This document shows positions 8,025-56,348 of a stretch of 63,571 bases of DNA, one piece after another. The first letter of the stretch is position 1. The number at the start of each line of letters is the position of its first letter. Under the pieces are notes generated by a model. It was not told the DNA's origin. It ran no database searches and saw only the letters and a program-made list of their open reading frames with translations. Position numbers and translations under genes: made by a program. The DNA is from Acidobacteriota bacterium (lineage in GTDB: Bacteria; Acidobacteriota; Vicinamibacteria; Vicinamibacterales; UBA2999), in contig VFZN01000017.1 of assembly GCA_016871195.1 (NCBI GenBank), positions 1 through 63,571 on the forward strand, in the 5' to 3' direction.

Positions 8025-8122
8025 TGGCGGAAGCGCCTGAGAGTCGAACTCAGCCCGCCCTCTCGCGAAGGCAGCGGCCGGTTTTGAAGACCGGGAGGGC
8101 CACCGGGCCCCGTTCGCTTCCA
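8025..8122 (-). tRNA. selC: tRNA-Sec (anticodon UCA)
   Basis: 98 nt including an encoded CCA (complement of 8025-8027). The acceptor arms GGAAGCG (8122-8116) and CGCTTCC (8035-8029) pair perfectly, with discriminator G before CCA. The D arm has a 6-bp stem (GGGGCC/GGCCCT) and 4-nt CGGT loop, a hallmark of bacterial tRNA-Sec. The anticodon stem CCGGT/ACCGG encloses CTTCAAA with anticodon TCA (complement of 8085-8087), which reads UGA. A long variable arm and the T arm CTGAG-TTCGACT-CTCAG follow. It implies that the organism makes selenoproteins. selA, selB and selD are not in the window. Confidence 0.96.
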
Positions 8123-51638: not shown

Positions 51639-52769
51639 GTGAACAGACTGCGCGTAGGCGTGCTCTATGGCGGCCGGTCGGGCGAGCATGAAGTGTCATT
51701 GGCGTCGGCCGCCTCGGTGCTGGCGCATCTCGACCGCTCACGTTACGACCCTGTGGCGATTCGTATCGGGCGCGATGGCGTGTGGCGCCTCGACGGCGCG
51801 GGCCCGACGCGCGTGTCGGCGGCCGAGGTGATCACCGCGGCGCAGCAGGGCGATGCCGGAGGCGCAGCGGGTGCCGTGGTGATGCTGCGGCCATATCGGT
51901 CCACCGAGCCGCTGCTGGTACTGGCGGCCGACGGGACGGTTGCAGACCGTCGTCCGATCGACGTGATCTTTCCAGTGCTGCATGGGCCCTTCGGCGAGGA
52001 CGGTACGCTGCAGGGCCTTCTGGAACTGGCGGACATCGCATACGTCGGCCCAGGGGTGGCCGCGTCAGCTGTCGGCATGGACAAAGTGCTGATGAAGCAG
52101 GTCTTCGAGGCCCACGGTATGCCGCAGGTACGCTGGTGCGCCTGCACGGCGTTCGAATGGCAGCAGGCTGCGGCCTCCGTGCGTGCGCGCGCACTGGCCC
52201 TCGGCCTTCCGCTGTTCGTGAAGCCGGCCAACCTCGGGTCCAGCGTCGGTATCTCGAAGGTGCTCACCGGCGACGCCCTCGATGCCGCCATCTGCGAGGC
52301 ACTGCACTACGACCGTCGGATCATCATCGAGGCCGGCGTTGACCAGGCCCGCGAAATCGAGTGTGCCGTGCTCGGTAATGACGAACCGCGCGCGTCTGTG
52401 GCCGGCGAGATCATCCCCGGCCGCGACTTCTACGACTACGAGGCCAAGTATCTGGATGACACGTCGGTGTCGGTGATTCCCGCTGAGTTGTCCGGGGCGC
52501 AGGTCCGCGAGGTGCAGCGGCTCGCCGTGGCGGCATTCCGCGCCATCGACGCCACGGGATTGTCGCGCGTCGATTTTCTGCTATCCCGGTCGACGGGTGC
52601 CCTGCTGCTGAATGAGATCAACACCATGCCGGGCTTTACCACCATCAGTATGTTCGCCAAACTGTGGGCGGCCAGCGGTGTGGCCTTCGGTCCGCTGCTC
52701 GACGTATTGATTGCACTGGCGCGCGAGCGACACGCGGCACGGCAGGCGCTACGCACCAACCCGCTGTGA
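51639..52769 (+). CDS. ddl: D-alanine--D-alanine ligase
   Basis: 376 residues, ATP-grasp. Motifs: [86 protein letters not shown] and [13 protein letters not shown]. It makes the D-Ala-D-Ala of peptidoglycan. Start GTG 51639 follows TATTAT by 7 bp without an RBS. The next gene begins in a GTGA overlap at its stop. Confidence 0.95.
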
Positions 52770-53827
52770 ACACGTCTCACTGGACCGGGCGCGCCGCCAC
52801 CGGCCTCGCGGCGCTGGCCATCACGACTGCGCTCTGGTCGCTCCCGGCCGCACAGGCGCCCGCAGGGGGCGGGCTCACCGCCGGCGACGCTGTGGCACGC
52901 GCATACGACGTCGTGCTCGACGCCGACTTCACCCGGATGCCTGCCGTCGTGGCCGAGACGTGCGGCCCGGCGCCTGTCGAGGTGTGCACGGGCCTCATGA
53001 CCATGAGCCGGTGGTGGGAGCTGATGCTCGACCCGGAACATCCGGGACGCGATGCGCGCTTTGTGACGTCCGTGCAGCGCGCCGTCGCTGAGACCACGGC
53101 GTGGACCGTGCGTGAACCCCGGCGCGCCGAGGCCTGGTTCTATCTCGGCGTCGCGCTCGGGGCGCGAGGGCAGTGGCGTGTGCTGCATGAGGAGAAACTC
53201 GCGGCGGCACGCGAGGGCAAGCGCGTGAAGGAGGCACTCGACCGCGCCCTCGCCCTCGATCCCTCGCTGCAGGATGCCGAGTTCGGGACCGGGATGTACC
53301 GGTATTACGCCGGCATTGTGCCGTCCTACATGCGCTGGCTGCAATGGATGTTTTCGCTGCCTGGCGGCGATCGGGCCGATGGACTCGCGCGCATGGAGCG
53401 CGCCAGTCGCGGCGGGCAGCTCGTCACGGCAGAAGCCGACTATCAGCTGCACCTCATCTACCTCTGGTATGAGGGACGCATTCCCGACGCGCTCGCGAAG
53501 ATTCGTCACCTGCAGCAGCGCTATCCGCGCAATCCGCACTTCCAGGATGCGGAGGCAGCGATTCACCGCCGCTATCGCGGTGACCATCGCGCGGCGCTGC
53601 AGGTGGGCGAGCGACTGCTGGCCATGGCCATGCAGGGCCGCGTGCATGAAGCGGCGCTGGCAGCGCCGCGCGCCCGCCTGATCATGTCGCAGGCCTACGA
53701 TGCCCTCGGGCAGCGCGAAGCGGCGCGTCCGCTCGTTGCCGCCATCATCGCGGATGCGCGCACGGCACCAGTCGATGTAGTGCGTATCGCGCGCCAGATG
53801 GACCGCGCATCACGCGTGCGTCCGTGA
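52766..53827 (+). CDS. Exported TPR-like protein of unknown function
   Basis: 353 residues. Signal peptide at the N-terminus (AALAITTALWSLPAAQA). Helical repeat features: AEAWFYLGVALGARGQWRV, VKEALDRALALDPSLQDAEF, YQLHLIYLWYEGRIPDALAK. Conserved Trp/Tyr-rich MYRYYAGIVPSYMRWLQWM is distinctive. No enzyme motif. Start GTG 52766 overlaps the ddl stop (GTGA), implying coupling to peptidoglycan precursor synthesis, possibly only by convenience. Confidence 0.75.
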   Translation: MNTSHWTGRAATGLAALAITTALWSLPAAQAPAGGGLTAGDAVARAYDVVLDADFTRMPAVVAETCGPAPVEVCTGLMTMSRWWELMLDPEHPGRDARFVTSVQRAVAETTAWTVREPRRAEAWFYLGVALGARGQWRVLHEEKLAAAREGKRVKEALDRALALDPSLQDAEFGTGMYRYYAGIVPSYMRWLQWMFSLPGGDRADGLARMERASRGGQLVTAEADYQLHLIYLWYEGRIPDALAKIRHLQQRYPRNPHFQDAEAAIHRRYRGDHRAALQVGERLLAMAMQGRVHEAALAAPRARLIMSQAYDALGQREAARPLVAAIIADARTAPVDVVRIARQMDRASRVRP

Positions 53828-53883: not shown

Positions 53884-53943
53884 GCAAAAACGCTTTCGCA
53901 ATACAACCAAGAAAAGATTTCTGCTTGACAAGCGCGTTTTTGC
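53884..53943. repeat. 10-bp perfect inverted repeat around a strong promoter
   Basis: GCAAAAACGC (53884-53893) and GCGTTTTTGC (53934-53943) are exact reverse complements, centre-to-centre 50 bp. The second arm lies in the spacer of the promoter of the small basic peptide gene, as expected of an operator pair; a cruciform or RNA origin is also possible. Confidence 0.6.
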
Positions 53944-53952
53944 ACTCATAAT
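53925..53952 (+). promoter_or_regulatory. Strong promoter of the lysine-rich peptide gene
   Basis: TTGACA (53925-53930), 16-bp spacer, CATAAT (53947-53952). The -35 matches consensus and the -10 matches five of six. The leader is about 88 nt and contains the palindrome CAAGCC-AC-GGCTTG (53980-53993). Confidence 0.7.
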
Positions 53953-54046
53953 CTACATCTGGTATGAGGGCGTGAAACTCAAGCCACGGCTTGTGATTGA
54001 CAAGTCGGGGCTGCCAAAAGGCAGGGTGCGCCCGTCAGGAGGCATC

Positions 54047-54145
54047 ATGGCGAAGAAGGCTGCGAAGAAGGCCGCAAAGAAGGCCACCAAGAAGGTTGCG
54101 AAGAAGGCTGCAAAGAAGGCCAAGAAGAAGGCTGCGAAGAAGTAG
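54047..54145 (+). CDS. 32-residue lysine/alanine-rich basic peptide (histone H1-tail-like)
   Basis: Starts MAKKAAKKAAKKATKKVAKK and continues with the same KKAA pattern to the stop at 54143-54145. All residues are Lys or Ala except Met1, one Thr and one Val; 17 are lysine. RBS AGGAGG lies 4 bases before ATG. It resembles the Lys/Ala/Pro-type tails of bacterial histone H1-like proteins but has no other domain. Likely binds DNA, RNA or other polyanions. It has its own promoter, operator-like repeat and intrinsic terminator, so it is a genuine stand-alone transcription unit. Function is inference. Confidence 0.8.
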   Translation: MAKKAAKKAAKKATKKVAKKAAKKAKKKAAKK

Positions 54146-54176
54146 CGCAGGCTGTTCGCTGCGAACTCGCCAAAAG

Positions 54177-54200
54177 AGGGGGCCCTGCGCCCCCTTTTTT
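54177..54200 (+). terminator. Intrinsic terminator of the lysine-rich peptide gene
   Basis: AGGGGGC (54177-54183), loop CCTGC, GCCCCCT (54189-54195), then a run of T to 54200; preceded by AAAA. Textbook intrinsic terminator. Confidence 0.92.
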
Positions 54201-54266
54201 GCTGTACGGCGCCGGGAGCCACCACAGGCACACGCCGCACGCCCCCTCGGGTCCGCGCGCGTGGTG

Positions 54267-56348
54267 CTAGCGATCGGATCCGATCCAGCGCACCCCGTCC
54301 CAAATACGGATCTGCAGGATGCTGTCCCACGGCTCAAGCCGATCCACGACATCCATGCCGCCAATAACCTGGCCGAAGGCCGGATACCGCGCGTCGAGGT
54401 GCGGCTGTGGCGTGTGGGTGATGAAGAACTGGCTGCCGCCGGTGTCGGCCCAGTCGAGCGCGATGCCCACGGTGCCCCGCAGGAACGGACGCTGATTGAG
54501 CTCATCGCGCATCGTGAAGCCGGGGCCCCCCTCGCCATCGCCGCGCGGATCACCCGCCTGCGCCACGAAGTCGGCCACCACCCGGTGCCACGGCACGTTG
54601 GTATAGAACCCCTGGCGCACCAGCGCCGTGACGTGCGCCACGGTGCGCGGCGCATCGACCACGGCGAGTTCGATCTGCACGCTGCCCTGTGTGGTGTCGA
54701 GATACGCCGTCGGTGTCACGGTCGGACGCAGCAGTGCATTGAGGTCGGTCACTTCGGGCAGGGTAGACGCCGGTGCCGGCGTCACCGGTTGCACAGGCAC
54801 CTCGGGCTGCATCTGCCGCAGCAGTGCGGCGGCCTTGAGGCGCACGGCCCAGTCGCGGTCCCCGAGTGCGACGGTCAGCACGTCGGTGGCCTGGGCCCCG
54901 GCGATCACCTGCAGCGCTTCAAGCATCGCCGCGCGCGCCACATACGTCGTGTCATTCGCGGCGCGCGCCAGCGCCTCACGCAGGGCGGGCACCGCATCAG
55001 CCGCCTGCAGCGCCGCGAGTGCCCGCGCCGCAGCCATGCGCACGACCGGGTCATCACTGCCGAGCCGTGTCCGTGCAACCTCTGCGGCCGTGGGAGCCTT
55101 GATCGCCACAAGGGCCGCGACCACGGCTGGCACGACGCGCTGATCGCTGTCCCCCAGCATGGCGGTGAGGCGCGGCTCGGCGCGATCGGCCCTCAGCGTG
55201 CCGAGGGCGGTCGCGACGGCGGCGCGTACAGACCAGTGCGGGTCGGCATCAAGGCTCGAGAGCACCGTGAAAAACGCCTCGCTATCGATTTGCGATAGTG
55301 TCGTCAGGGCCGCAGCACGCATCGCCGGCGCACCGGCCGACACCAGGTCGTAGCACACCTCAACCGCCGCGCGCGCACGCAGTTGTCCGAGGGCCACCAC
55401 GACCTCGCGCTGAATCACCGGCGGCGTCACTCCCCTCGTCAGCAGTGCCAGCAGTGGTGCGGCGTCGACGCCGTCGCGGATGCGCGCGAGGGCGCGGATC
55501 GCTTCCACCCGTACCGGCACGGGCTGTGCGTGCTCTGTGGCCAGCGCGGTGAGGGTCGCACGTGCACCAGCGTGCCTGATGCCACCCAGCCCCTTCGCTG
55601 CGAAACTGCGAGTGATCTGCCCTGCCGACGTCAGCAGCGCCTCAAGCACCGGAGCCGAACGCGGATCAGCCATGCGCTGCACCGCGTAGGCCAAGGGCCA
55701 CCAGTGGCTTCGTGGCTGTCCTTCGGCACTGACGGCCGCCGACGCCAGTGCCTCGTAGGCCGACATCCGCGCGAGCGCATACGCGCCCAGCCGCACCGCT
55801 TCCACCGCCGGTGCGCGCGGATAGCCAAGGTCATCTGGCGGAATGCCCTCGAGCACCCCGGCATCGACATGACGACGCACCATGGCGGCCACGGCGGTGC
55901 CCGACGCCACGTGCCCGATGAGCCCGAGTGCTTCGGCAGCACGTCCCTGCAGCACCACATCATCGCTGCCCAGCGCGGCTGTCAGTGCGGGCACCGCCCG
56001 GTCATCGCCGATGAGCCCCAAGGCGAAGGCCGCCATCTGCCGCACCTCGGCATCGGGCTCGGCCGTCAGCAGGGCGCCCAGTGGGCCGATCGCCTCTGTC
56101 GCACGCACCCGCCCGAGCGCCTGCGCGGCGCGACGCCGGATGTGCGCCTGCGGGTCGGCCAGCAGCACCAGCAAGTCCTGTCCCTCGGCTTCGCCGCGCA
56201 CCCGGCGCTCGTCCTCGAGCGACAGGGTCCACTCGAGTTTCTGCTGGGCGGTGGGCGGCGGCGGCCCGGCGGGCACGACGATGGGGGGCGCCGAGGCACA
56301 TCCCCACAGGCCCGCGACGAGCCCGCACAGGACGAGGCGGAGGCGCAT
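54267..56348 (-). CDS. HEAT-repeat lipoprotein fused to a cyclophilin peptidyl-prolyl isomerase
   Basis: 693 residues. Signal peptide with lipobox GLWGC (C17). Residues about 55-520 are consecutive HEAT/PBS-lyase-type repeats (VLLADPQAHIRRRAAQALGRV; QMAAFALGLIGDDRAVPAL; HWSVRAAVATALGTLRADRA; VVRMAAARALAALQAADAV). Residues about 560-690 are a cyclophilin domain (VQIELAVVDAPRTVAHVTAL; YTNVPWHRVVADFVAQAGDP; GTVGIALDWADTGGSQFFIT; FGQVIGGMDVVDRL). The catalytic-Arg region PWHRVV and the QFFI segment are retained. It may be a periplasmic folding factor with a scaffold. Start ATG 56348 overlaps the menC-like stop (TGATG). Confidence 0.88.
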   Translation of the reverse strand: MRLRLVLCGLVAGLWGCASAPPIVVPAGPPPPTAQQKLEWTLSLEDERRVRGEAEGQDLLVLLADPQAHIRRRAAQALGRVRATEAIGPLGALLTAEPDAEVRQMAAFALGLIGDDRAVPALTAALGSDDVVLQGRAAEALGLIGHVASGTAVAAMVRRHVDAGVLEGIPPDDLGYPRAPAVEAVRLGAYALARMSAYEALASAAVSAEGQPRSHWWPLAYAVQRMADPRSAPVLEALLTSAGQITRSFAAKGLGGIRHAGARATLTALATEHAQPVPVRVEAIRALARIRDGVDAAPLLALLTRGVTPPVIQREVVVALGQLRARAAVEVCYDLVSAGAPAMRAAALTTLSQIDSEAFFTVLSSLDADPHWSVRAAVATALGTLRADRAEPRLTAMLGDSDQRVVPAVVAALVAIKAPTAAEVARTRLGSDDPVVRMAAARALAALQAADAVPALREALARAANDTTYVARAAMLEALQVIAGAQATDVLTVALGDRDWAVRLKAAALLRQMQPEVPVQPVTPAPASTLPEVTDLNALLRPTVTPTAYLDTTQGSVQIELAVVDAPRTVAHVTALVRQGFYTNVPWHRVVADFVAQAGDPRGDGEGGPGFTMRDELNQRPFLRGTVGIALDWADTGGSQFFITHTPQPHLDARYPAFGQVIGGMDVVDRLEPWDSILQIRIWDGVRWIGSDR

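Follow-up and report, generated by a model that had tools for sequence, protein, structure and literature searches.

Several bacterial proteins carry Lys/Ala-rich segments that recall histone H1. Hc2 binds both DNA and RNA, and its length varies through Lys-rich repeats (PMC2848022). The K/A-rich tail of AlgP resembles the C-terminal tail of histone H1, and peptides of this KPAA tail bind DNA in vitro; AlgP, a K-rich H1-like protein, also associates with polyphosphate granules, which it spaces apart (PMC9239181).

The locus described here encodes a Lys/Ala peptide that stands by itself. It lies in the window (i.e. the whole 63.6-kb stretch of DNA that was analysed), where a scan of the open reading frames for products of at least 16 aa with K+A of at least 75% found a single one of this composition, encoding MAKKAAKKAAKKATKKVAKKAAKKAKKKAAKK (17 K and 12 A among 32 residues). 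A preliminary description had presented it as a stand-alone micro-gene with its own promoter, AGGAGG ribosome-binding site (RBS) and terminator. All three signals are present in the window sequence (Table 1), and the micro-gene is real, with its start, RBS, promoter and locus position conserved across the order Vicinamibacterales. That description had also named a lack of conservation of the start, RBS and terminator as grounds for abandoning the gene; examined in related genomes on these points, the gene held up. We found no description of such a micro-gene in Acidobacteriota in the open-access literature.

The micro-gene and its signals in the window

Table 1. Coordinates of the micro-gene, its signals and its neighbours in the window.
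Feature	Position	Strand	Remarks
TPR-like gene after ddl	52664..53827	+	Neighbour; start codon provisional
Inverted repeat, left arm	53884..53893	.	Present, not conserved
-35 hexamer TTGACA	53925..53930	+	Relatives have TTTGTGCTTGACA
Inverted repeat, right arm, in promoter spacer	53934..53943	.	Present, not conserved
-10 hexamer CATAAT	53947..53952	+	Conserved
Near-invariant core TAATCTACATCTGGTATGAGG	53949..53969	+	Spans -10, presumed start site and first RNA bases
5' leader RNA	53957..54046	+	Matched by family covariance model
First leader hairpin, CGTG...CACG	53971..53988	+	Alignment read by eye
Second leader hairpin, GGCTTGT-GATTG-ACAAGTC	53988..54006	+	Read from sequence; single-strand fold consistent
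Shine-Dalgarno AGGAGG	54037..54042	+	Kept in relatives
Micro-ORF, 32-aa Lys/Ala peptide	54047..54145	+	99 nt; homologous micro-ORFs in relatives
Intrinsic terminator	54171..54201	+	13-bp stem, -20.8 kcal/mol, T-run
HEAT-repeat/cyclophilin peptidyl-prolyl isomerase, convergent	54267..56348	-	Neighbour; Pfam; synteny marker

The window promoter is an 11/12 match (TTGACA/CATAAT) with a spacer of 16 nt, and one promoter-like site was found in 3 kb against 0.3 expected. We infer that transcription starts at about 53957-53959, and the consensus -35, the spacing and a T-rich tract upstream suggest high expression. Window positions 53953-54051 are matched by the covariance model built for the family leader (E 5e-9), and the first leader hairpin is, from the alignment read by eye, a shifted form of the family hairpin P1. 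The terminator stem is flanked by T-runs both ways and is common to the micro-gene and the convergent cyclophilin gene.

The perfect 10-bp inverted repeat around the promoter (arms GCAAAAACGC and GCGTTTTTGC) is physically present, but the operator role first proposed for it is unsupported, as is specific repression through GCAAAAACGC, since the repeat was seen in the window genome only. A perfect 10-bp repeat of any kind at this promoter position occurs in three of 89 dereplicated promoters, the other two being unrelated in sequence, and GCAAAAACGC was rejected as an operator because it is unconserved among these 89. K/A micro-ORFs are conserved in related genomes, but the same repeat is absent there. 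Conservation lies instead in an upstream TTGAC box, in the TCTCAyCC spacer that precedes the -10 and in the structured leader. In the promoter consensus, CTCAyCC and GGTATGAG form inverted arms around the -10/start region in most relatives; these arms are partly missing from the window. A dedicated regulator, if there is one, might bind at the upstream TTGAC box or at the CTCAyCC...GGTATGAG arms, which are better candidates than the repeat.

The TPR-like gene, which gave no match in a Pfam search, contains a look-alike of the leader core with two mismatches at 53454-53474 (TCATCTACCTCTGGTATGAGG). Such look-alikes within the TPR-like gene were also seen in locus L013 and apparently in genomes G457, G029 and G475, and are probably a coincidence of the conserved protein motif IYLWYEG. 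Elsewhere in the window a tRNA-Sec gene with anticodon TCA was found at 8025-8121 (- strand), given which the window genome may use selenocysteine.

The unit in related genomes

A unit composed of promoter, structured leader, AGGAGG, micro-ORF and usually a terminator was recovered at 96 distinct Vicinamibacterales loci, the micro-ORFs following the pattern MAKK...KK(R/K) with lengths of 14-60 aa across the order. The order promoter consensus comprises TTTGTGCTTGACA, a spacer ending in TTTTCTCAyCC, CATAAT and the near-invariant CTACATCTkGTATGAGG, with a TTGAC box about 25 nt 5' of the -35 in about 81 of the 89 dereplicated promoters. The window promoter is the most diverged of the set and has neither the upstream TTGAC box nor the conserved spacer. 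In relatives the leader is about 90 nt long and is followed by AGGAGG and the micro-ORF.

Mostly, the unit has two tandem micro-ORFs. The second lies 94-249 nt further on in at least 51 loci, and 72 of 74 late ORFs have their own G-rich Shine-Dalgarno (SD) sequence, AAGGGGGGAT. In about a dozen loci, including the window, there is a single early ORF of greater length (mostly 26-60 aa), and in about 20 the late ORF alone (mostly 16 aa); all these counts are approximate because the peptide filter overlooks some real ORFs. The single 32-aa ORF of the window looks like a derived, atypical form when compared with its congeners L003 and L005, which have two 18-aa ORFs each. A further element, TGCCAGGCGGCAG, was noted between leader/ORF1 and ORF2 (e.g. 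in L040 and L047). All of its 42 occurrences are within the unit and none was found outside it in 639 kb of loci; it is unit-specific, precedes ORF2 in many loci and is absent from the window.

A DNA search matched 38 of 40 relatives, partly via other K/A-coding DNA and often also via the promoter and leader. Scanning one genome per species for the motif returned 90 contigs, nearly all of them labelled Acidobacteria, Acidobacteriota or Vicinamibacteria. The few labelled Cyanobacteria, Woeseiaceae, Acidimicrobiia or Bifidobacterium belong to MAGs, and we take these labels as wrong because the neighbouring genes are the same ones as at the remaining loci. From the labels we infer that the window belongs to the class Vicinamibacteria of the Acidobacteriota. 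The strict MAKK...KKR ORF pattern was present in 33 of 42 order genomes, and 354 other acidobacterial genomes gave no match. When as many as three mismatches were allowed, the 21-nt core was detected in 81 of 98 genomes of the order and in none of the 31 from sister orders within the class, the match in G475 being the look-alike in the TPR gene. The leader covariance model detected 51 of 60 order genomes, in single copy save for two genomes of one genus, which had two copies. Two leader copies were recorded in G302:C2 and G494 (order family f14); in G302 the two are on opposite strands, separated by about 34 kb. In some genomes of the order no unit was detected (17 of 98 in the core scan, and several in family f8), so that it appears dispensable or replaceable there.

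In sister orders, diverged copies (MAAKKKAKKAAKKKK, MPAKKKAAKKATKKKK, MAKKKRAKKAAKKTAKKAAKKKK and similar) lie close to the HEAT-cyclophilin gene, preceded by CTTGACA...CTACnnnTrGTATG or a close variant, several with the SD AAGGGGGGAT. A diverged unit was found in seven of the eight sister-order genomes examined; in one of the sister-order genomes (G101) the unit, with two ORFs, lies about 3 kb away. Among 24 genomes of other acidobacterial classes, ten have a cyclophilin relative, and the cyclophilin neighbourhoods of these ten contain no K/A micro-ORF. The class-level promoter motif was absent outside the class in a sample of 217 genomes of the phylum.

Downstream of the unit, the convergent HEAT-cyclophilin gene was found at 73 of the 75 loci with enough sequence, and upstream lies ddl, often with a TPR-like gene in between. 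In locus L058 an inversion in place has turned the entire unit round; it is intact and has the same neighbours, a natural test of its self-containment. The typical-promoter pattern was matched in eight of 11 genomes, there at the micro-gene unit only, and no other genes under the same promoter were found in the 11. By comparison of these sequences, the unit is a transcription unit in its own right, inherited vertically, and the micro-gene is about as old as the class Vicinamibacteria.

Leader RNA, peptide and proposed function

The loop of the first leader hairpin (GCTCAGC) is complementary to GCTGAGC, a nearly fixed site just upstream of the RBS, at 16-21 nt from the end of the tested leader segment. 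Of the cells in the order-wide alignment, 81% are paired for the first hairpin and 84% for the pseudoknot, and the whole leader structure is 66.5% paired, against 31-49% in slid controls. Two-sided changes were counted in 89 cells, compared with a shuffle mean of 61.8, and none of 500 shuffles reached 89. Compensated variants include L051 (G:C reversed) and L061 (AATC:GATT), and the leaders of L018, L057 and L101 have an added T:A pair. Within one clade the leader changes were one-sided and not above shuffles, and RNAalifold returned no nested consensus structure from the order-wide MAFFT alignment. These pair counts make a leader pseudoknot probable in the family; in the window it is unproven, and the pairing of loop and downstream site is weak in the window genome and its genus. 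Rfam searches, run to an E-value of 5 for the window region and of 1 for nine relatives, gave unrelated sub-threshold matches only. We regard the leader as a candidate for a new kind of cis-regulatory RNA. That it regulates dosage, via the peptide or otherwise, is speculation.

Across 145 peptides, Lys and Ala make up 49% and 29% of residues and Pro 0.5%, and 143 of the 145 terminate in KKR or KKK. Since our search demanded an ATGGCnAAr start, the MAKK beginning is partly built in; the KKR/KKK ending was not imposed. Pairwise pN/pS was 0.19, a crude value from non-independent pairs, and there is good evidence at this level that the amino-acid sequence is under purifying selection.

On balance, we lean towards an ancient, class-wide micro-gene whose product would be an abundant free polycation, similar to an H1 or Hc2 tail, that binds DNA or RNA. 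A dedicated sigma-70-type promoter would drive a short mRNA, its leader structured and its Shine-Dalgarno strong, and transcription would stop at the hairpin terminator. The very basic, low-complexity peptide, joined in most relatives by the product of a second micro-ORF with its own SD (AAGGGGGGAT) and encoded in the window by the one longer ORF left, would be produced in quantity. As a free polycation, comparable to an isolated tail of the histone H1, Hc2 or AlgP type, it would neutralise DNA or RNA and condense or coat it, and the leader would tune its amount. Nucleic-acid binding is favoured on the analogies with AlgP tail peptides, Hc2 and the tail of a SWIB-domain protein of the same genome.

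K/A composition alone cannot separate DNA, RNA, polyphosphate and the ribosome as partner. The peptide could be a real polycation whose partner is polyphosphate granules, the ribosome/rRNA or some other polyanion, which we regard as possible though rather unlikely. AlgP, which is K-rich and H1-like, is found at such granules (PMC9239181). The size, the charge and the strong-looking promoter would also fit a ribosome-bound peptide; against this, a search of PDB chains to an E-value of 10 gave no match, a weak test for low-complexity queries, and a length range of 14-60 aa ill suits a fixed ribosomal site. It is doubtful that the abundant class-wide polycation regulates itself, the peptide binding the conserved pseudoknot of its own leader and closing the RBS once its level suffices; if true, this would be an autoregulating microprotein among the most abundant polycations in these soil bacteria.

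We consider it improbable that the RNA is the main product, i.e. a structured regulatory RNA whose K/A ORF is incidental or merely stabilising. The leader and start region are better conserved than the ORF, the hairpin and pseudoknot are backed by the pair counts, and the unit-specific TGCCAGGCGGCAG stands ahead of ORF2 in many loci. The low pN/pS, however, points to selection on the codons, the two separate ORFs each have their own SD and share the KKR/KKK ending, and sister orders keep micro-ORFs though their leader has diverged.

Very little weight can be given to ORF1 as an attenuation leader peptide, in which the reading of Lys codons would control a terminator past ORF1 and hence the downstream ORF. 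A T-run hairpin does lie about 17 nt past the ORF1 stop in 30 of the 51 two-ORF loci (against two of 153 shuffles), and because promoter-like sites in the gap between ORF1 and ORF2 were found in just two of the 51, ORF2 may depend on read-through. What follows, however, is a K/A micro-ORF, a second terminator and the convergent cyclophilin gene, with no biosynthetic gene and no biosynthetic or transport operon such as follows a classical attenuator, and in the window the + strand is empty downstream until the convergent gene. That the ORF is a chance artefact, an open low-complexity repeat with look-alike signals, is scarcely credible. K/A-coding repeats do occur as protein tails at other places in the genome, but for the family the idea is contradicted by conservation throughout the order and the class, by synteny and by selection.

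Comparison with known Lys/Ala-rich and small basic proteins

The peptide matches no family in Pfam or NCBIfam. Its longest relative (60 aa) scored 13.7 bits with PF07382 and 12.6 bits with NF038053, for which the cut-offs are 40 and 80 respectively, and the window peptide did not match either profile; by profile score, the micro-protein falls outside the Hc2/BpH1 families. Hc2 of Chlamydia and BpH1 of Bordetella are likewise Lys/Ala-rich low-complexity repeats that form a disordered polycation and vary in length by repeat number, but they are 165-237 aa long, whereas the micro-protein has 14-60 aa, a tandem gene pair and a structured leader. Very small basic ribosomal proteins of the bTHX, bL36 and eL41 type belong to the same size and charge class; unlike the micro-protein, they have fixed, non-repetitive sequences.

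Within the same genome, a SWIB-domain protein (G000:C7, L142:637-1017) has a K/A N-terminal tail, MAKKAKKAAKPAKTAKKAVKKAAAKK, closely similar to the micro-protein; it differs in possessing a SWIB/MDM2 domain and a separate locus. The C-terminal end of another K/A-rich protein (KTVAKKTVAKKPVAKKVAAKKKAAKKKAPARARR) was seen at L143:1-102, at the start of a contig (G000:C9) whose edge cuts it.

A class-old gene at a fixed locus is easily overlooked in annotation when its product is often of 14-20 residues and low complexity, and this one would offer a simple natural system for the effects of a bare polycation in cells. The KPAA tails of AlgP (Pseudomonas) and PhaF-type proteins are K/A-rich, as is the micro-protein; AlgP, however, joins a helical domain at its N terminus to a KPAA tail of 154 aa, whereas the micro-protein is body-less and almost Pro-free. 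The H1-like tails otherwise found within larger bacterial proteins would here have a free-standing counterpart. On this reading by analogy, the micro-protein would work like an isolated tail, resembling that of H1 but lacking a body, and its gene has a promoter of its own and a structured leader.
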